Source: Pseudisothecium myosuroides
Lineage: Eukaryota > Streptophyta > Bryopsida > Hypnales > Lembophyllaceae
NCBI GenBank assembly: GCA_951799445.1
Contig: OX637288.1
Coordinates: 14,200,501-14,264,500 of the forward strand
Reading direction: 5' to 3'
DNA length: 64,000 nucleotides
The notes below the pieces were generated by a model, which was given only the letters and a program-made list of their open reading frames with translations, searched no databases and was not told the DNA's origin. A program made the translations under genes and the position numbers. Of this stretch, positions 1 through 50,584 are shown piece by piece (position 1 is the stretch's first letter; every line of letters begins with the position of its first letter).

Positions 1-3000
1 CCTGAATTAAAAACCAAGCAGGATTTACATGAGCTGGGAAGGTGGCCTGAAATGCCAGGTCCCCCCAGGAGCTCTTGTCTATGCTGCTTAAAGAAATTTA
101 CTGAGACAACGTAACAAAACATTCGACAGAATCAGAAAGATGGTTTCAGATTCTTGGGGACGCAGCACGGACCTTGTAAAGAATGGCATAATGGGAGAAC
201 AAATTTCAATGAGATGCAGGGTGATTGAGTTCATACCTGGACTGGATTCTGAAGTGGTGCAGGTTTCGTCATCGAAAGGCGATTGCAAGACCGAGACAGG
301 GCTGGGTTGCCCAGCTGCTTCATCCACTAAGCGCTGTTCCAGAACCTTCTGCACTGGTGGTGACTTTGGTTCCGGGTCCAAAACTTCGGCTTCCACTTCC
401 GGTTCCTTCACCTGGGAAGAAAAGAACAGCAGAATCAAGCAAAACCATCATAAATGCACTCTAAGACCTGATCCCGTCTCCTTTACTGACCCCCGCTAGC
501 AACAGCAACTCAACTATTCACACACTAAGTTGCTTTCAATTACCAAGAGGCGTAAGCGCAAACGACCACTACTCTTTCAATGTATACAGATTTTTGTTAC
601 CAACGACAACTTGAAATCTATTCAAACACTCAAATACTTTCAATTAGCAAGTGCAGTAAGCATGATTTGACTAAATCACTATGACCACTAACCTTTGAAT
701 GTACAGTACACTGGCCCATGTTACCAACAGAAACTCATCTATTAATTAAATACACAAGATTGACTTCAATTAGAGAGTGGAGTATGTGACTTAGCTAGAT
801 GGCTAATCCCTAAAATTGAACGGAAAAGAGGTTGTCCACTGTCTCTCCAATAGTGGTCTACAACCTCCCATTTTGAAAGATTGCATAAGAAATGCACGAA
901 AATTGATCTAAAGAGAGTCTAGGTCTTGATGTCTCCAGTGAGAGTGCTCAATACAGTGATCTCCCAATGAGAGCACACTCCTACACTGAAAGTTAAATGC
1001 TTAAATAGCATCCTCTACCTAAACAATTGTGGAATCAATGGCCAAATGAATGGAACTCTACGTACCTGGAGTTTCGTTTTCGGTGAATCACTCATCCCAT
1101 CACTCGGTGCATCACACTCTCCCGGGTTGTACGAAGCGCAGGAGCTCCACGAGTCTCCGTTTCGTTCCTCTTCAGAGAACGTCAGACTCCGTGACGAAAT
1201 CGAAGGGCCAGAACAGCTTCGTTCACAACATCGCCCACTCAGAATGGTTTCCACAATCTCATCCTCCCAACACACAGGGAACGATTCCACGGAGATTGAT
1301 TCGGTCTCCGCAGTGGGGACATTACAGTCACTACGAAGCTCAACACAATCAATCAAAGGTCTAGTCGAAACCCGCTTTCCAGACTCTGCAGAGTCACGAA
1401 GCTCGGCATAGTCAATCAGAGGACTCATCGAAATCTGGGGAGCGTCTCCGGTGCTGCACTCTGTGAAATCAAAGTCTGGGCTGAATAAGACATTTTCAAT
1501 TGGTCGACGGAGCCTTATTGTATCAGTCTCCTTGGATTCACTGTCTAGAGGAAGCTCAGGAAACAGAGCATCCACGCTTCGTGGTTGAGATTGCGAGGGC
1601 TTCGGGACCGTGATCTTGATTCGTTTTGAAGTACTCAGAACTGGGGGTTCAGATTGACTCGCCATGTCCTGTGCGTTCATATTATTGCCCGTCTTTAGTC
1701 GGTCACCGAAACCTTCCACTTGCTGAATCCCTTTGGGTTTAGTCAAAACGCCGCTGGCAGCAGCTTTTTCAGTGAACCTTTGCAACTTCAGCGGCGACGG
1801 GGGCTTACTGTGCACGAGCTTACCGTGGCTGTGCAGACTTGGTTTGGGAACATGATGAAGTCGATCTGCCGAAATGTCACCCTGAGGGTCTAGAGATGGT
1901 GATCCTTTTGCTTTTGGCTTTCCAACTTTGCCTGGCGGTGGCTTTCCTGGTGCCATAGCTGGAGACTTTACCAAATGCTCCTTGCTCTTCATCTTCGCCG
2001 TCGTCGTCGTCTTTCCTACTTGTGATGTTGCATTCTTCATGGGGGAATTCTTACCAGACTTGCCACTCGGGCGCCCTGCTCTGGAGCCTCTTGCCTGACC
2101 TGCCATGGGCGGAGTTTTCGAAGAGACGGACCGAAACTCACTATTTGAGCTCTGCGAAGTACCTGTCAGTTTGCACAAATTTTAGCCAAAATGGCTAGTA
2201 GAGAAAACACTTGTCTGATTTCATTAATGGAGACATGAGCTGATGAGCCAATAGATTGTCTAAAGTTGACCAAACATAGTACTCGTACTTTTCTACAAAG
2301 TTATTTGAAGAATCTAGATGATGACACCAAGAAAATGGCTATCAAAAGTTACAAGGCTCCGACAATTTTGCGACTTTTGCAAAAAACAATAAACACAACT
2401 GGTAAGTCACCTGTAGACGCAAATGATACAGTTCTGGAAATTTCCGATGGAATCATCAAAGGCTGCCGCTCGCCAGGGCTCCTGGCACCCCCTCGACGTC
2501 TCGAACCTTTGAATTCAGGCTCAGCAATTGGTTTGGACCGCCTGTTTGTGTGACGAGCAGCTTGTGACTGCTGCGACGGCGGCGAGGTTTTCTTCACGTT
2601 TCGTCGCTGTCGTCTCGGCGGCCCCTCAATGGTGGAATCACTGTCGTCACTTCCATTCCACGAGGAGCTTCGTCTCCTCCCGTGCACCATTTTCGAATTC
2701 ATCAACAACGGTTTCGACGACGCGGAGTCCGTTGGTTTGCTACCCACGCTCTCACTCTCCTGCGGGCGTTCCGAGCTCGAGGTTTCCGTCTCGCGGTACA
2801 GATCCGGCGGAACATTGTGTTGTCCCCCGAGTGGCCACCCTTGCAGCACAACGTCTCTCCCCGTTGACCGCGCTTGCAGCAAGCTGAGCTCCGGAATGGC
2901 CTCGCCGGATGTGGGAAGCCGCGACAGGAAGGGTTTCTGTTTCTGCGTCACGGAGTACATGAACCGGGACTGCGCTTGAGGGATGTCGACGAACGCCGGG

Positions 3001-4136
3001 GAGATACACCATTCCTCCGATCGGCAACGAAACGTCGGGAAGGAGCTTCGCTTCCGACGAGTGACGCGTTTGCAGAAGAGACGCTCTCGCAGGGATTTGT
3101 TGGGTTTGTTGGGTTTGGAGGGTTTGAAGTCTTGTTGGAGAAGGTCTTGGAGCAGCACGGGGCTGGTGATGGGGTGATCAAGGCGAGATGTGGAGGAGCC
3201 CTGGGATTGGCGATGGTGAGCGTAGGGATCTTCTGGGAGAGACTCTAAGCCCATCAGCCGGGCCACCACGCCGGGTGGTCGCATCGGTGCGGCAACGTGC
3301 TCGTCATGTCTCTGCAACGTAGCAATGGCGATGACGTAACCTTGTCAAAACTCAATTCGAAACATCATGGCACAACGAGCACCATGGGTTATAACAATTG
3401 GGAGCTAGTGAGACGTTTCGTCACATAACCCCGCAAAGCAAAAACATTAGAATTGGGAACCATGATATAATACCTTTCGCGTTTTGCCATGGTCGGTGCG
3501 AAAGCTCCTTGATCGTCGAAATGAGCCTTTCCCCGACTTACCTACATCACCAGCACTCAATGGATCATCACTTGGTCACAAGGATTGAGACGGAAATCGA
3601 ATGTGCGCTTCAATTTTCTGGCTCTGGAGTAGACTCAATAGAGAGTGGTGTCCTCTCTTAGGGCTCTGGAGCACCATACCTAAGCCGACGACGACTCCCC
3701 GATCGAAAAGAGTTAAGACGCAGTGCAGCTTTTGTAAAAGATGACTAGTGCAGTGAATTCTTACGACTCTGTTCTTACTCGATTTTCCATCACACGACCC
3801 ACTTGTACTTAATCTTCAATCTTCGGGCTTGTATCTCAGAAACAGGGTAAGCACGAACCAGCCATTTGTGGCTGAACCGTGCATTTCCAGTTCTGCAGGC
3901 CATTGCAGGCCATTGCAAGAATATTCCAAGATGAAACTCACTAGCTCGGACAGCGAAAGGAAAGCTTATGCCCAGTGGTACTCACTTGCAGGGAGGCGCT
4001 TCGTGGAGGAGAATCGTTTGGCCGAGGGCCAGTCAAACAAATGGAAGAAGGAGCTCACGCAGCCTCCATATCTCGGAGACTGTACCACAGGCGAGACGTA
4101 AGATGGCGTTCCTCGCCCCTCCCCCATCATCACCAT
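1..4136 (-). CDS. TRM/LONGIFOLIA-like protein (DUF4378 family), 5' portion; continues off the left edge
   Basis: Five exons join in phase: 4136-3986, 3541-3474, 3311-2411, 2162-1066 and 411-237. A sixth exon begins at base 1, because the acceptor AG is at bases 3-2. The visible protein is about 797 aa. It starts MVMMGEGRGTP, then has an N-terminal block GGCVSSFFHLFDWPSAKR (about residues 24-41) like the Cys-x-x-x-FxxFDW start of TRM19/20-type proteins, then GVVARLMGLESLP (about 88-100), the family hallmark. Next comes a long basic, Ser/Pro-rich disordered stretch, and near residue 774 QPSPVSVLQSPF, the conserved PSPVSVL motif. The C-terminal DUF4378 domain should lie beyond base 1. Known members (TON1-recruiting motif proteins) bind cortical microtubules and the TON1-TRM-PP2A complex and affect cell elongation and division-plane orientation. 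The ATG at 4136 is the first in frame. Family assignment is firm; the exact orthologue is not. Confidence 0.88.
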
Positions 4137-35253: not shown

Positions 35254-38200
35254 TCAAAACTCATTCAGCTTGGCAATGATGTCCAAAAAACTTGGCCTCC
35301 TCGAAGGATCAGCATGCCAACAATCCACAACAACGCTCTTCAACAAAGGATGGAGGTCTTCAGGCAACTCTGGTCGATTTCCATCCAAAATGAAATCATA
35401 ATCCCGAATAGAACGGCCCTCAAAAGGAATGCATCCAGTAACAAGCTTGTAGCAAACCATGCCAAAGCTATACACATCACACGCCTTGGTGAATTCCATC
35501 GCAGAGCTCCGAACTTGATTCTTCAACTGTTCAAGAACCTCGGGTGCCCTCCAAAAGCTGGTGCCCACAACCCCCACTGAACACTCGAAATCAGCTACAG
35601 TGGCCAAGATCTTCCCATTGATGGATGGTCGTTGCAAGCCAAGCAAAAGGACATTGGAGGTTTTCAAGTCTTTGTGCAAGATGGGTGGCTTTGCAGAGTG
35701 CAACAAGTGCATGTCTCTAGCTATGCAGAACATTAGTCGCCTCACTTGCCACACACTAAAAGGAGGGCCTTGATTGTTTTCTTCTACCATTCGAAGATCA
35801 ATCAACTTTCGCAAATCTCCCCATTGCCTTTCCATCAAAATTGCAAATCGATCCAAAAACCTACTATCTTTCAATAGCATTCCACCTTGTATCAACGAAA
35901 AACGTCTACCTTCACCATAGGCATATTTAAATTCATTTACCATTCCTGGAGGCCATTGATTTTCAAGATCTTCCAAGAGAAAACTTGGACGGAATACCTT
36001 CACCACATAGTCCTTGCCAACTTCATAGATCTCTGCTTGAGCTCCTTCACCAATTTTCTTACCGATGACAATATCATCCCTTTCCGTGAAGAAGCTTATA
36101 CCCTTCCATGAAGGATACTTGTTCTTGAGCACCATAAAGGATGCACGGTTGATATCTCCAAAATTCTCTATGGTAGGAGTTGAATCCATTTCACTCAAAT
36201 GAACTTTTGAATACTCAATCTCAAACTCAACATCACTTTTGAAGTTACTTCTATCCTCAATCATGCTTTGAGTGCGAGTATAGTAACAAGAAGTAGTTGA
36301 TGGAGGAAAACTTGGCTTTGAAGAAGAAGAAGCACCAAAGCTTGCATCTGAAAACAAAAATTCAAAACAATGAGCTATATCATGAACTTCCCAAACCGTA
36401 TCTCTTATTAATTTGACTTGTGTATACATTTGTCTAATTCCATTCATGTTCTATTACAAACTCAAATTAATCTCATCAAGTTTTCAAATTGATCAATGTT
36501 AAATCTCCTCCGGAAGTATACAACTATCTACAACAAGTCCAATTGTGAAAACAATAAAGTCATGAAACATCATCCTATTTACCTCACCACCTTCTACCTT
36601 CTCAAAGTAAATTCTAGATTCAAATTAATTCCTTGGGATTCTACATTGTTGTTTTGCTGTCCATGTATAGACTATTTGCCTAACAACCATACTTTGAGAA
36701 CCAAAAACCACCTCTACAAACTTGATAACCACACCCACAAGGAAACTAACCAATAAACACAAACACTTACCACCATCAAGTGTTGGCACCAAATGATCTT
36801 CCTCAATTTCACACGCCAAAGAATAGAGACGTGGATGACGAGGGTTACATGGACAAAACCTAGAATTCATGAGCAATTAGTTTTTGAAACCTCATGGTTT
36901 ACAAACTTTACAATTCTAAATACCAATATGATTGAAGACCTATCAACTAAAAAAATGTTGTTGAATACTAGGAATAAAGACAACCACTATAACATAATAA
37001 AAAGTTGTTGAACACTAGGAACAATTGAGTCAATGCAAGGTTGATGCAAACAACCTCAACTTCCATCACTTAACTCTAAAAGTTCATCACGCAACTCCAG
37101 AAGTTCATCAGATCTATAAAAACGTACCCAGATTCTCTCCAAAAAGCCGGATCCCCACAGTCGCAGAACCCATCACCTCTACTCTTGAACAACCCTGCTT
37201 ACATCCGAACATCAAACTTCCAATTACAAAGTTCCTACTTTGAGAAGTTTCTAGATCACATCATATGATCATAATCATGATGTTCTCAATTAGTCCGGAA
37301 AAAACCCCTATTAACGAATTAATAGTAAAAAAACAATCAAAAGGAACTGCAGAAATCGAAAGAGACTGTTTCATATATCGCAGTTCTAGAATCAACTGTT
37401 TTAGTCATCTCCACAAAAGATACACTAAACACAAGGAATCAAAAGATTACTCAGAGTCTATAACGTGGACAAAGAGGTAATTACCAAAATCGTGCCCCTC
37501 ATGGTTGCCAAGACGGAAACAAATCCAACATATTGCACTGCGTCACAATATGGCATACAACAACAAAGTTCCACCATGTCAAAAAGAAGAAGCCAAAATT
37601 CAAAAGAGCAGCAAGATTTCATGCGTCAAATAATGGAAGTATCATTATTGGTTGCCAAGCCATCTCCCACAATACTTACTCAACAAATGCAAATATTGAT
37701 TTCATGTCCGTTCTTTTGCAGCACTGAAAACCCCCCACAGGTCCAAATTTTAGCACCATGGTTGGTCTACTTGCAATCACACGTTGAAAGATCCGAAAAG
37801 GAAGGGTTGTTATACGAGACATCAACAAAATGGTTTCCACTTGACGGAGACAGATTTCGGCCCTTCAGTGCGAAGGGACAAATCGAAGACGTTAAGGTAA
37901 GCGCCTTGAGGAACTCAACTGCTGAGTAACAAAGCACCATTTTGGTCGCAATTAGCCATGTAGAAGGAAAACACATAAACGAAACGTCTGTCAAAGGGTT
38001 CTCCCAGCAACCAGCCTCATCCATTGAATCCAACAACGGAAGACTGTTGCACTCAAAATTCTCCGAAATTAGCGCACGTCGCTAATTCTTGACTCAGAAA
38101 TGTGACCATGGCATTGAGGTATGTCCCAGTCGATTTCAGTTTCTGTCTATAAGATTTGTATGGTCATCTCTGTGGACCTTGCTTGCAACTATTTACTGCG

Positions 38201-38432
38201 AAGGGGGGAGTCGCATAGCAAAAAAGCATATCAAATTGACGTACCTCGAAGGGTGCAGTCCACACGTGTAGCATTTCATAAAACAGTATCCCGCCTGCCA
38301 TACGACCCTGCACTGCGATTCTCCTCGATTCCGATACGACTCTGTGAGCGAAAATTGAGGCTCCACCCCACCCACCGACAAAGGAGACTCCTCAAGAGGA
38401 ATCTCGAGGTCCTTCTCGCAATCCGCTGCCAT
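35254..38432 (-). CDS. UBR-box / protein kinase fusion protein
   Basis: Five exons join in phase: 38432-38245, 37537-37485, 37194-37128, 36859-36771 and 36347-35254, giving 496 aa. Every junction has GT-AG. Residues 41-111 form a UBR box: C41-x12-C54-x2-C57, then CWICF (66-70), GNHEGHDF with H75 and H78, GFCDCGDPAFW (89-99), and FCPC at 104-107. UBR boxes bind N-terminal degron residues in N-recognin E3 ligases. After a Ser-rich linker (133-220) a kinase domain runs from about 225 to the end: GEGAQAE glycine loop (232-238), VVKVF Lys249, HKDLKTSN (357-364) in place of HRD, DFE (385-387) in place of DFG, a short activation loop and APE (400-402). It resembles plant Ser/Thr or dual-specificity TKL-type kinases. 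ATG 38432 is the first in the frame. The apparent upstream extension of the last exon is intronic, since a T-rich tract and AG precede 36347. Confidence 0.9.
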
Positions 38433-48337: not shown

Positions 48338-49078
48338 CAGTTTCATTGTAAGAAACAGTGGTACTGGGTGTTTGTCACAAACGAAGTGTCAACTCTTTCA
48401 TTTGCAATAAATTCTTAAGCTTGACTCGCATGAATTTGAAATTTTTATTGGAGATGTATATCTTGAGTGTATTTATATCTCATATTTTTTAGAAATTAAA
48501 AAAAATCATCTTATATTTAAAATCAATTAAATTAATATGTCACGTTTTGCAATTTAGGGGTTTTGAGTATTATGGAGTCCCCAAATTTGATGATTTAGAG
48601 CTGAAATTTCTATGGTCTATTTATGTAGTAGGAAATCATGTTTCTACCAAGGGGCATTAAAAAATAATTTATTTTATGTCCTCCACGTCCTTGCAAAGAG
48701 GGCTCCCTTGCGCGTGCAATTCTGAACAATAAAGATGGTTTCAAGATAATTTTTTTGTTCAAATCTCTTCATCATGAAGTCTTCCCAAATTTTCTATTTT
48801 TATTTTCTTTGAAAATGTTTTTTCCTTATTTTTTACAAATTAAAACGTCAGAATATGTATTTTCTTCAAATTTTCTGCTTTTTTCTTTTGTGAATAACTT
48901 TTGACTCAGATTTTTTTTAGGTCTGAAATTTTGGTGATATGCTATTTATAGTATTATACTAATTATCCTTATTTTATTTTATTTTTAAAAATTCATATGC
49001 AAAAGCTCATGAATACTGGAGTATTAGCCAAAAACAGCCAAAGTAGAACAAAAACTGACGGTGTTTCTTGCAACGACC
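48338..49078. mobile_element. Element with TTGCAAGAAACACC terminus inserted in the hAT gene
   Basis: The right end GGTGTTTCTTGCAACGACC lies exactly where the transposase reading frame breaks. The interior (48560-48650, with GATTTAGAGCTGAAATTTC) is the inverse of the element at 44542-45320. The left end is probably the TTGTAAGAAACAG at about 48346, but it is worn. Confidence 0.5.
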
Positions 49079-50584
49079 TAGCAGAACCTCAATATCTGAC
49101 AGAAGGTCAAAGTTATCGGCAGCCCCCAAGTAGGCCTTTGTAACACATCCGGGAGTCATGTTGACTCCTATTTTTACCAACAACGTGCGATACTCCAAGA
49201 GAATCCTTGATGCTGGGCTCCTCATCGAGATCCACCTAGTTTCAACATTTCTTACCATTTTGTTACCCTTAGTTTCCATGAGATCAGCAAGCCTTTGCAA
49301 TTCAACACGACACTTATTGCTTCGGCAAAAGTATGAATACACGGTCTGGAAGAGACCTTTGAGCCTGAAGATGAGTGGGAACTTGGACATCGTCTCCACA
49401 GCTAGATTAAGCCGGTGACTCACACAGCTTGCTCCAATCAGAAACGGAGCCCACTTCTCCCGTATCTGCGTCGTAACACCTGTCCTGGGCCTTTGGAAAG
49501 TGCTCACACCATCAGCCCCAAATGACACTAATTTTCTAGCAATTTCATGACGCGTCAAGCCTCCCTCATTCATCAACGCATGCATTATCGTCTCAGTCAA
49601 GTGATCTGCAGTTCCACTCTCAGAAACGCAAGCTAACAATAATAGATGTGGAACTCTCTCCCAGTGATCCATGGCATACACGTGAACCCCCAGCCATGAG
49701 GTGTTATCAACTACAGTTACTTCATTAGCAGAGATGGAAATGATAGAGACAGATTGAACAACACTTTTTAGTGCAGCTAAAATCGAGTCGTGAATATGCT
49801 CACTCATCTCCCAGCTTGTCGACTCGGACCAGTGTTTTTTGGGCAAACTTCTTACCTTCAATTGCTTCAACAACTGCTGTTGCCGCTCGTAGTCGCACAT
49901 TGGGCGGCCATGACTGAGAATATGGAACAAGGTAGAGAATTGAACGTGTTTTTGTTTGAACTCACCATCCAAGCCATCCAACAGTTGGTCGGCCACTGTG
50001 GTCGACTGGTTGCATGCAGCTGAAAGCTTCACCAACTTCAAATGTTTGCAATCGTGGACATGATACACATCACCTTTCTTCAAGTGAGGAAGGGGAATGC
50101 CGTCCTCCTGACAGACACGCTTCCCCTCGTGTTTTTCTAGATTGTCTGCTTTTGGAACAAGCACCTTCCGGCGCCCCATAATCGTGGTGCAGCTGCAGTA
50201 GATAATGCCCACGACGTCCCCATCAGCGTTAAATTCCCCCTCGGCCCAGGCAAATTTGCACGTCCACACCTCCTGCCACCTTCTGGTAGTAGTTGCGGCG
50301 GCAGTCTTTGTCTTCTTTCGAGTAGTTCTGGCTTTCTTCGAAGGTGGGCCAACATCCCCGTCGCTCGTTGGAAAAAGCGTCAGAGAAATAACGATCACTT
50401 CAGAAGATGGACCCTGCCCTGGAAGAAGCAGTGAGTGCCGTGTTTCCGTGACGTGAGTGAGCTCGATGCAATTAGGGTCATTGTGCACCACAACATTACC
50501 GTTTGGAGGCAAGTATTTGCCTACACCGCTTGTGTTGCGGCTTGATCCAAATGTGCGCACATGAAAGTTTTCTAGGAGCTTCAA

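Follow-up and report, generated by a model that had tools for sequence, protein, structure and literature searches.

A moss gene that very probably joins a UBR box to a protein kinase, with an intact neighbouring copy

Most work on UBR boxes concerns their role as the reading head of a ubiquitin ligase. Here, we describe a gene of Pseudisothecium myosuroides, termed copy A, that very probably joins a UBR box to a protein kinase. It lies in a stretch of 64,000 nucleotides (C2:14200501-14264500, contig OX637288.1; the window, with coordinates counted from its first letter) and has two neighbouring relatives, copies B and C.

In human UBR boxes the pocket residues are D118, T120, F148, D150, and D153, and selectivity is set by D118, T120, and D153, according to passages of PMC8346999. 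Passages of PMC10687169 describe that the α-amino group is held by D150 and the backbone of F148, that the preference for Arg comes from D153, and that His166 is the last zinc ligand of UBR1-3. The box of copy A shares the Cys/His pattern and the F148/D150/D153 equivalents with the UBR E3s PRT6, UBR1, and UBR2, but has changes at the positions of D118 and His166 and is followed by a kinase in the place of the ligase domain. A second group for comparison are the kinase fusion proteins Sr43, Lr9, and Pm4, in which, as in copy A, a kinase is joined to an unrelated domain, and for which an integrated-decoy logic has been proposed (PMC10260397, in part). These proteins differ from copy A in their partner domains, are called unique to Triticeae in the passages of that paper, and have been shown to confer resistance, whereas copy A is known from sequence. 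The combination that marks a kinase fusion, an active-looking kinase and an unrelated domain, is found in copy A. Finally, passages of PMC4506424 name the protein kinase domain PF00069 among those that lie next to a UBR box in part of the retrieved sequences; this is the Pfam pair of copy A, named there without mechanism, organism, or arrangement. An earlier note on this DNA had stated that no plant system of this kind was described, and indeed we found none in the open-licence PMC papers; the pairing itself is not wholly unprecedented, because PMC4506424 mentions it in the passages cited.

Copy A consists of five exons on the minus strand (38432-35254), and all four introns are GT-AG with compatible phases. 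Its features are as follows, where L029 denotes a UBR E3-like gene found elsewhere in the genome.

38245..38432, minus strand: exon 1, with the start codon (38432), the N-terminal tail, and the beginning of the UBR box; donor GTACGT
37485..37537, minus strand: exon 2 (53 nt), UBR box, SAICWICFRLGNHEGHDF; 53 nt also in B, C, and L029
37128..37194, minus strand: exon 3 (67 nt), UBR box with the variable loop 81-88 and FCDCGD; 67 nt also in B, C, and L029
36771..36859, minus strand: exon 4 (89 nt), end of the UBR box (GFCPCNPRH) and linker; donor GTAAGT; 89 nt without indels in A, B, and C
36348..36770, minus strand: intron 4, between the UBR part and the kinase exon; contains an in-frame ATG at 36447, a very unlikely start
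35254..36347, minus strand: exon 5 (1094 nt), Ser-rich linker, N-terminal helices, kinase domain, and stop codon; open reading frame in all three copies
36847..38312, minus strand: UBR box, residues 41-107, split over exons 1-4; PF02207, 59.7 bits
35275..36060, minus strand: kinase domain, residues 229-490, with GEGAQAEIY, VVK, HKD, DFE, and RAPE motifs; Pkinase, 72.5 bits

The joined coding sequence of 1491 nt has no internal stop and encodes 496 amino acids. The Pfam profile zf-UBR (PF02207) covers residues 40-106 with 67 of its 69 positions (1-67; 3.1e-16), well above the cut-off of 25.2 bits, and Pkinase matches residues 229-490 (4.9e-20). The Cys/His series runs C41-x12-C54-x2-C57, C66-x2-C69, NHEGH, FCDCGD, and FC. 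The earlier note had listed four of these exons, implied the fifth, and described a UBR zinc fold running in phase into a kinase; exons, splice sites, phases, and the order and spacing of the motifs from C41 through FC all stand, the score of the spliced N terminus removes the objection that a UBR profile might be missing, the kinase profile agrees, and the continuity of the two parts is backed by the neighbouring paralogues.

These paralogues were found by tblastn over 100 kb on each side of the window. Both lie on the same strand, 34-50 kb from copy A, and have the splice sites of A. Copy C (C2:14286093-14289340) is intact, with five exons, all introns GT-AG at aligned places, and 1503 nt encoding 500 amino acids; its zf-UBR match reaches 66.4 bits (cut-off 25.2). 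Copy B (C2:14272615-14275778) has an open kinase exon. The splice site of exon 1 is conserved in B and C, and the frame of this exon is conserved in C and shifted in B. The 5′ flank is also duplicated among the copies (78-85% identity over ∼260 nt). Between A and C, all five exon indels are multiples of three, as are 5 of 20 in the introns; for exon 1 in pairs with B, the frameshift included, the counts are one of two (A-B) and two of three (B-C). Because a second intact copy exists, chance is excluded as the source of the common UBR-kinase frame, and because B and C share strand and splice sites with A, a misjoining of two genes is in effect excluded as well.

Such a misjoining would imply a short UBR gene next to an intronless kinase gene starting at 36447, and the kinase frame of copy A is indeed open upstream as far as this ATG. 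However, the stretch from the ATG to exon 5 has a codon score of -8.6, compared with means of -8.7 for noncoding and +9.2 for coding sequence (185 stop-free noncoding and 327 coding 99-nt windows, in sets that overlapped the target: the coding set held most of the copy A kinase exon and the noncoding set held copy A introns). Its G+C content is 28%, against 32-43% in introns and 43-54% in exons. The frame that is open in A is interrupted by stops in B as well as in C, and therefore a stand-alone kinase start is unavailable there. Moreover, the homology to the kinase family starts upstream of the first Met in exon 5, and the splice sites are retained in all three copies. The noncoding codon score and the stops in B and C bring the separate-gene model close to refutation, and we consider it very improbable. 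Other codon scores (small for exons 2-4, not favouring the true frame for exon 3, and -2.0 for codons 1-39 of exon 5) were not used as proof. Taken as a gene-level statement the fusion appears close to certain, and a real UBR-kinase fusion is highly probable.

We also searched the genome (388 Mb, 222 contigs). The whole protein gave at least 89 matches, and because 86 of 981 candidates were scored, the size of the kinase family is a lower bound; among the matches listed, identity over the kinase is above 80% for A, B, and C alone, and is 54% for the next full match. Residues 1-132 gave 16 matches at E up to 10, namely 12 UBR exons (four each from A, B, and C), two PRT6 genes, L029, and one weak match on C5 (C5:8720861, E 0.3, one stop). 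A truncated 3′ kinase piece with 75-80% protein identity lies at C2:15744866-15745255, 1.5 Mb from the gene group, and no UBR exon was found near it in the 6 kb fetched.

The UBR module has a likely relative in the UBR E3-like gene at C10:15081700-15094700 (L029/L030), a relative of the homologue P0087. The L029 box is interrupted by introns at the same places as that of copy A, with the same phase at the end of exon 1, a second exon of 53 nt, and a third exon of 67 nt. Around exon 3, L029 and copy A share 73% DNA identity over 94 nt, and both have the lead-in GESQC. The two differ in what follows: downstream of its UBR exons L029 leads not to a kinase but to frames related to P0087, and the L030 frame matches the UBR1-like winged-helix domain PF22960 (34.9 bits, cut-off 27). 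The two PRT6 genes of the genome hold the UBR box in a single uninterrupted frame, with a loop one residue shorter. Because L029 shares phases and exon lengths while the PRT6 box is uninterrupted, we set PRT6 aside as the origin. The protein tree of UBR boxes, with values of 33 and 53 at its inner branches, leaves the source unresolved. Given the shared exon lengths and phases, the GESQC lead-in, and the identity around exon 3, the first exons placed before an exon of the large kinase family most likely came from a UBR E3-like gene or from a common ancestor. Elsewhere in the genome, L001 and L002 on C1, L003 on C3, and L004 on C1 represent two PRT6-like and two UBR7-looking genes, which we presume to be PRT6 and UBR7; the PRT6-like box matches the solved PRT6 box. 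Another predicted protein, P0112 (593 amino acids), combines a UBR box with an RRM RNA-binding domain.

The kinase exon assumes a kinase fold in an AlphaFold2 model of exon 5 (mean pLDDT 89), for which Foldseek returned MerTK (1.2e-15) and Roco4 (4.4e-15). The catalytic motifs of copy A are VVK from residue 247, LHKDLK from 356, and DFE from 385. In an alignment of 76 sequences, D226 (HKD), N231, and D252 (DFE), numbered within the kinase exon, are invariant, and the ATP-binding K116 is listed among the positions conserved in at least 90%. The Gly of the DFG motif is Glu in copy A, as it is in at least 90% of the alignment, and DFE and APE are separated by 18 residues, which is a short span. 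We expect the kinase to be competent for ATP binding and phosphotransfer, possibly without control by the activation loop.

Among the named relatives of this kinase, those with the highest scores come from two mosses, Ceratodon purpureus and Physcomitrium patens. With the large TKL-like family to which it belongs, copy A shares 38-52% identity over the kinase exon (26 members), the N-terminal helix region, and the common replacement of DFG by DFE, but none of the 75 other members scanned has a UBR box (Pfam, E up to 0.1; P0002-P0076 of 117 homologues). The remaining 42 homologues (P0001 and P0077-P0117) were judged by their listed Pfam domains and the UBR cysteine pattern; this pattern occurs in 8 of the 117, none of them with a listed kinase domain. 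Protein searches with the UBR part of A (six hits) or of C (no hits) returned no UBR-kinase protein, although these searches required shared five-residue words, so that distant cases may escape. The kinase tree gives no supported placement of copy A (no value at the nearest node, then 31 and 40). Several more kinases of the family are grouped at C7:18152508-18397409, C5:10471389-10889353, and C1:49189471-49256321, a sign of local expansion. Six related kinases of C. purpureus (P0021, P0030, P0032, P0035, P0041, and P0045) possess a Cys-rich N terminus. That these N termini are decayed UBR boxes is unsupported (hhalign probability ∼0.4%; phmmer E 0.033 in a set of 72 N termini, P0001-P0076 minus four without the motif), and P0021 has kinase-type Pfam matches only; they are maybe a different zinc module on the same kinase family.

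The N-terminal 133 amino acids of copy A match solved UBR boxes, namely 7wuk (“E3 ubiquitin-protein ligase,” 1.3e-12), PRT6 (4e-12), UBR1 (1.2e-11), and UBR2 (3e-10). With its three introns removed, the box aligns without gaps from C41 to C105 to the set of boxes with the top identity (51%), which we take to be UBR3-like. With positions assigned by their spacing relative to conserved cysteines, pocket residues 118/120/148/150/153 are H, S, F, D, D in A and N, F, F, D, D in C, so that three of five are kept in each. Of the 11 Cys/His positions of a UBR box (a ligand set that we presume, except for His166), 10 are present; toward the end of the box, A reads FCPCNPRH and C reads FCVSNPLH, with a Cys in A two residues after the preceding Cys and a His in both copies six residues after it. 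The ten zinc-ligand Cys/His of A (in part presumed, as above) are all kept in C, together with GFCDCGD and NHEGH, at a module identity of 64%. In A and C, Pfam returned zf-UBR and two kinase models only, and no ubiquitin ligase domain (RING, HECT, F-box, or PHD) was found; by its defining features, the copy A protein is not an N-recognin E3. The UBR box could still hold a free N terminus, and the classical preference for basic residues is doubtful. The proposal of the earlier note that an N-degron-type pocket may select kinase substrates is backed in part: the equivalents of F148, D150, and D153 speak for it in both A and C, whereas the changed positions of D118, T120, and His166 speak against it.

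The three copies differ in how fast their parts have changed. Between A and C, dN/dS is 0.30 in the kinase domain, 0.87 in the UBR box, 1.04-1.06 in exons 2-4, and 1.56 in the linker 108-160; nonsynonymous and synonymous changes number 33:9 in the UBR box, compared with about 39:32 in the kinase domain (Fisher P 0.015). Two patches of the UBR box, residues 46-53 and 81-88, have dN of 0.71 and 0.82 (∼20 sites each), compared with K of 0.147 in introns (A-C). By our own mapping, residues 81-88 are taken as the loop near the second-residue pocket described in passages of PMC8346999. The first 24 nt of exon 3 contain 10 (A-C), 10 (A-B), and 13 (B-C) differences, with uncorrected P at intron rates of 6e-4, 9e-4, and 5e-6; allowing for ∼62 windows, P is ∼0.04 for A-C and ∼0.055 for A-B. 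Overlapping intron windows as diverged as this window number 4 of 1544 (A-C), 0 of 1465 (A-B), and 0 of 1533 (B-C). Against diversification, one window of intron 2 reaches the same divergence in A-C as those of exons 1 and 3, and dN/dS over exons 2-4, which is 0.89 for A-B, is 0.47 for B-C. The kinase exon has diverged patches, too, around residues 208-216 and 268-276. The patches were selected after inspection, in a comparison of three sequences.

Our favoured explanation starts from a gene product in which a Ser-rich linker connects a UBR box to a TKL-type kinase, encoded by one of three neighbouring fused genes. The UBR box would be the recognition part and would dock on a protein or peptide; the contact would most likely be made by a free N terminus, because the residues that hold the α-amino group are kept. 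With D118 lost, the preference would have shifted away from the classical Arg/Lys/His class. Such docking would bring the target to the kinase or relieve the kinase, and the output would be a phosphorylation signal in place of ubiquitination. We lean, tentatively, toward a UBR box that serves to recognise a protein or peptide, plausibly at the N terminus of the latter, and a kinase that provides the output. It is rather doubtful that the protein is a kinase-based receptor for exposed N termini, possibly made by pathogens or proteases, in which phosphorylation replaces degradation and neighbouring copies diversify the binding loop. Several observations weigh against the favoured explanation. 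D118 is lost in both A and C, T120 is replaced in C, and the position of His166 is Asn in both, and therefore binding of N termini may be lost. The dN/dS of ∼0.87 in the UBR box (A-C) is also compatible with relaxed constraint. Copy B has a net frame shift inside exon 1, within the UBR box, for which a true mutation and an assembly error are indistinguishable, so that its UBR frame is lost while its kinase exon is open. To these points we add that the AlphaFold model is restricted to the kinase exon and that the L029 UBR exons and the L030 winged-helix frame are assigned to one gene from their order.

Several of these observations fit a box that is a structural or protein-protein zinc module under relaxed constraint, similar to UBR3, next to a kinase that works like its UBR-free relatives. 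The UBR3 box does not bind N-degrons, to our knowledge, and it is the boxes that we presume to be UBR3-like to which copy A is most similar (51%). The changed D118, T120, and His166 positions, the lack of a UBR box in all 75 other family kinases scanned, and the open kinase exon of B beside its lost UBR frame agree with such a module. On the other hand, the retention in C of the ten ligands of A (a partly presumed set), of GFCDCGD, and of NHEGH at 64% identity argues for continued use of the UBR box, and the change in the exon 3 loop is above the prediction from intron rates. We regard the structural module as a serious rival, albeit a fairly improbable one. A further reading sees an immune-type kinase fusion, in which the UBR box would be an integrated decoy of a UBR E3 that microbes attack or recruit, the kinase would report the contact, and the copies would diversify in a birth-and-death process. 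In favour of this scheme are the presence of three neighbouring genes, among them one whose UBR frame is broken, a UBR module in common with the E3-like gene L029, the dN of patches 46-53 and 81-88 against intron K (A-C), and the divergence at the start of exon 3 beyond intron rates in all three pairs; a precedent is offered by the kinase fusion proteins that confer resistance and for which an integrated decoy has been proposed (PMC10260397, in part). On the other side, the patches were chosen after looking at three sequences, P corrected for windows rises to ∼0.04 for A-C and ∼0.055 for A-B, four A-C intron windows equal the exon 3 divergence, the kinase exon has diverged patches of its own, and B-C dN/dS over exons 2-4 is 0.47. 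Relaxed constraint or gene conversion could give the same pattern, and we judge a decoy to be possible but somewhat unlikely.

Two other parts of the window contain large frames. The minus-strand frames 2349-3344 and 1015-2181, the former with a VARLMGL motif (PF14383, 37.4 bits), may form one gene, presumably of the LONGIFOLIA/TRM type. A 525-amino acid frame at 49007-50584 (minus strand) has no Pfam match at E 0.1 and by eye resembles what we take to be a remnant of a hAT-kind transposase.

What appears to be new here is the probable shift of a UBR module from a ligase to a kinase context, seen along with both an intact duplicate of the fused gene and a source gene that is likely related. 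A multicopy kinase fusion of this kind would show the same reading head wired to phosphorylation, and thus offers a direct way to ask whether UBR boxes sense outside of degradation. The presence of the E3-like gene and of intact and UBR-broken copies in one genome makes both the origin of the UBR box and the need for it testable.

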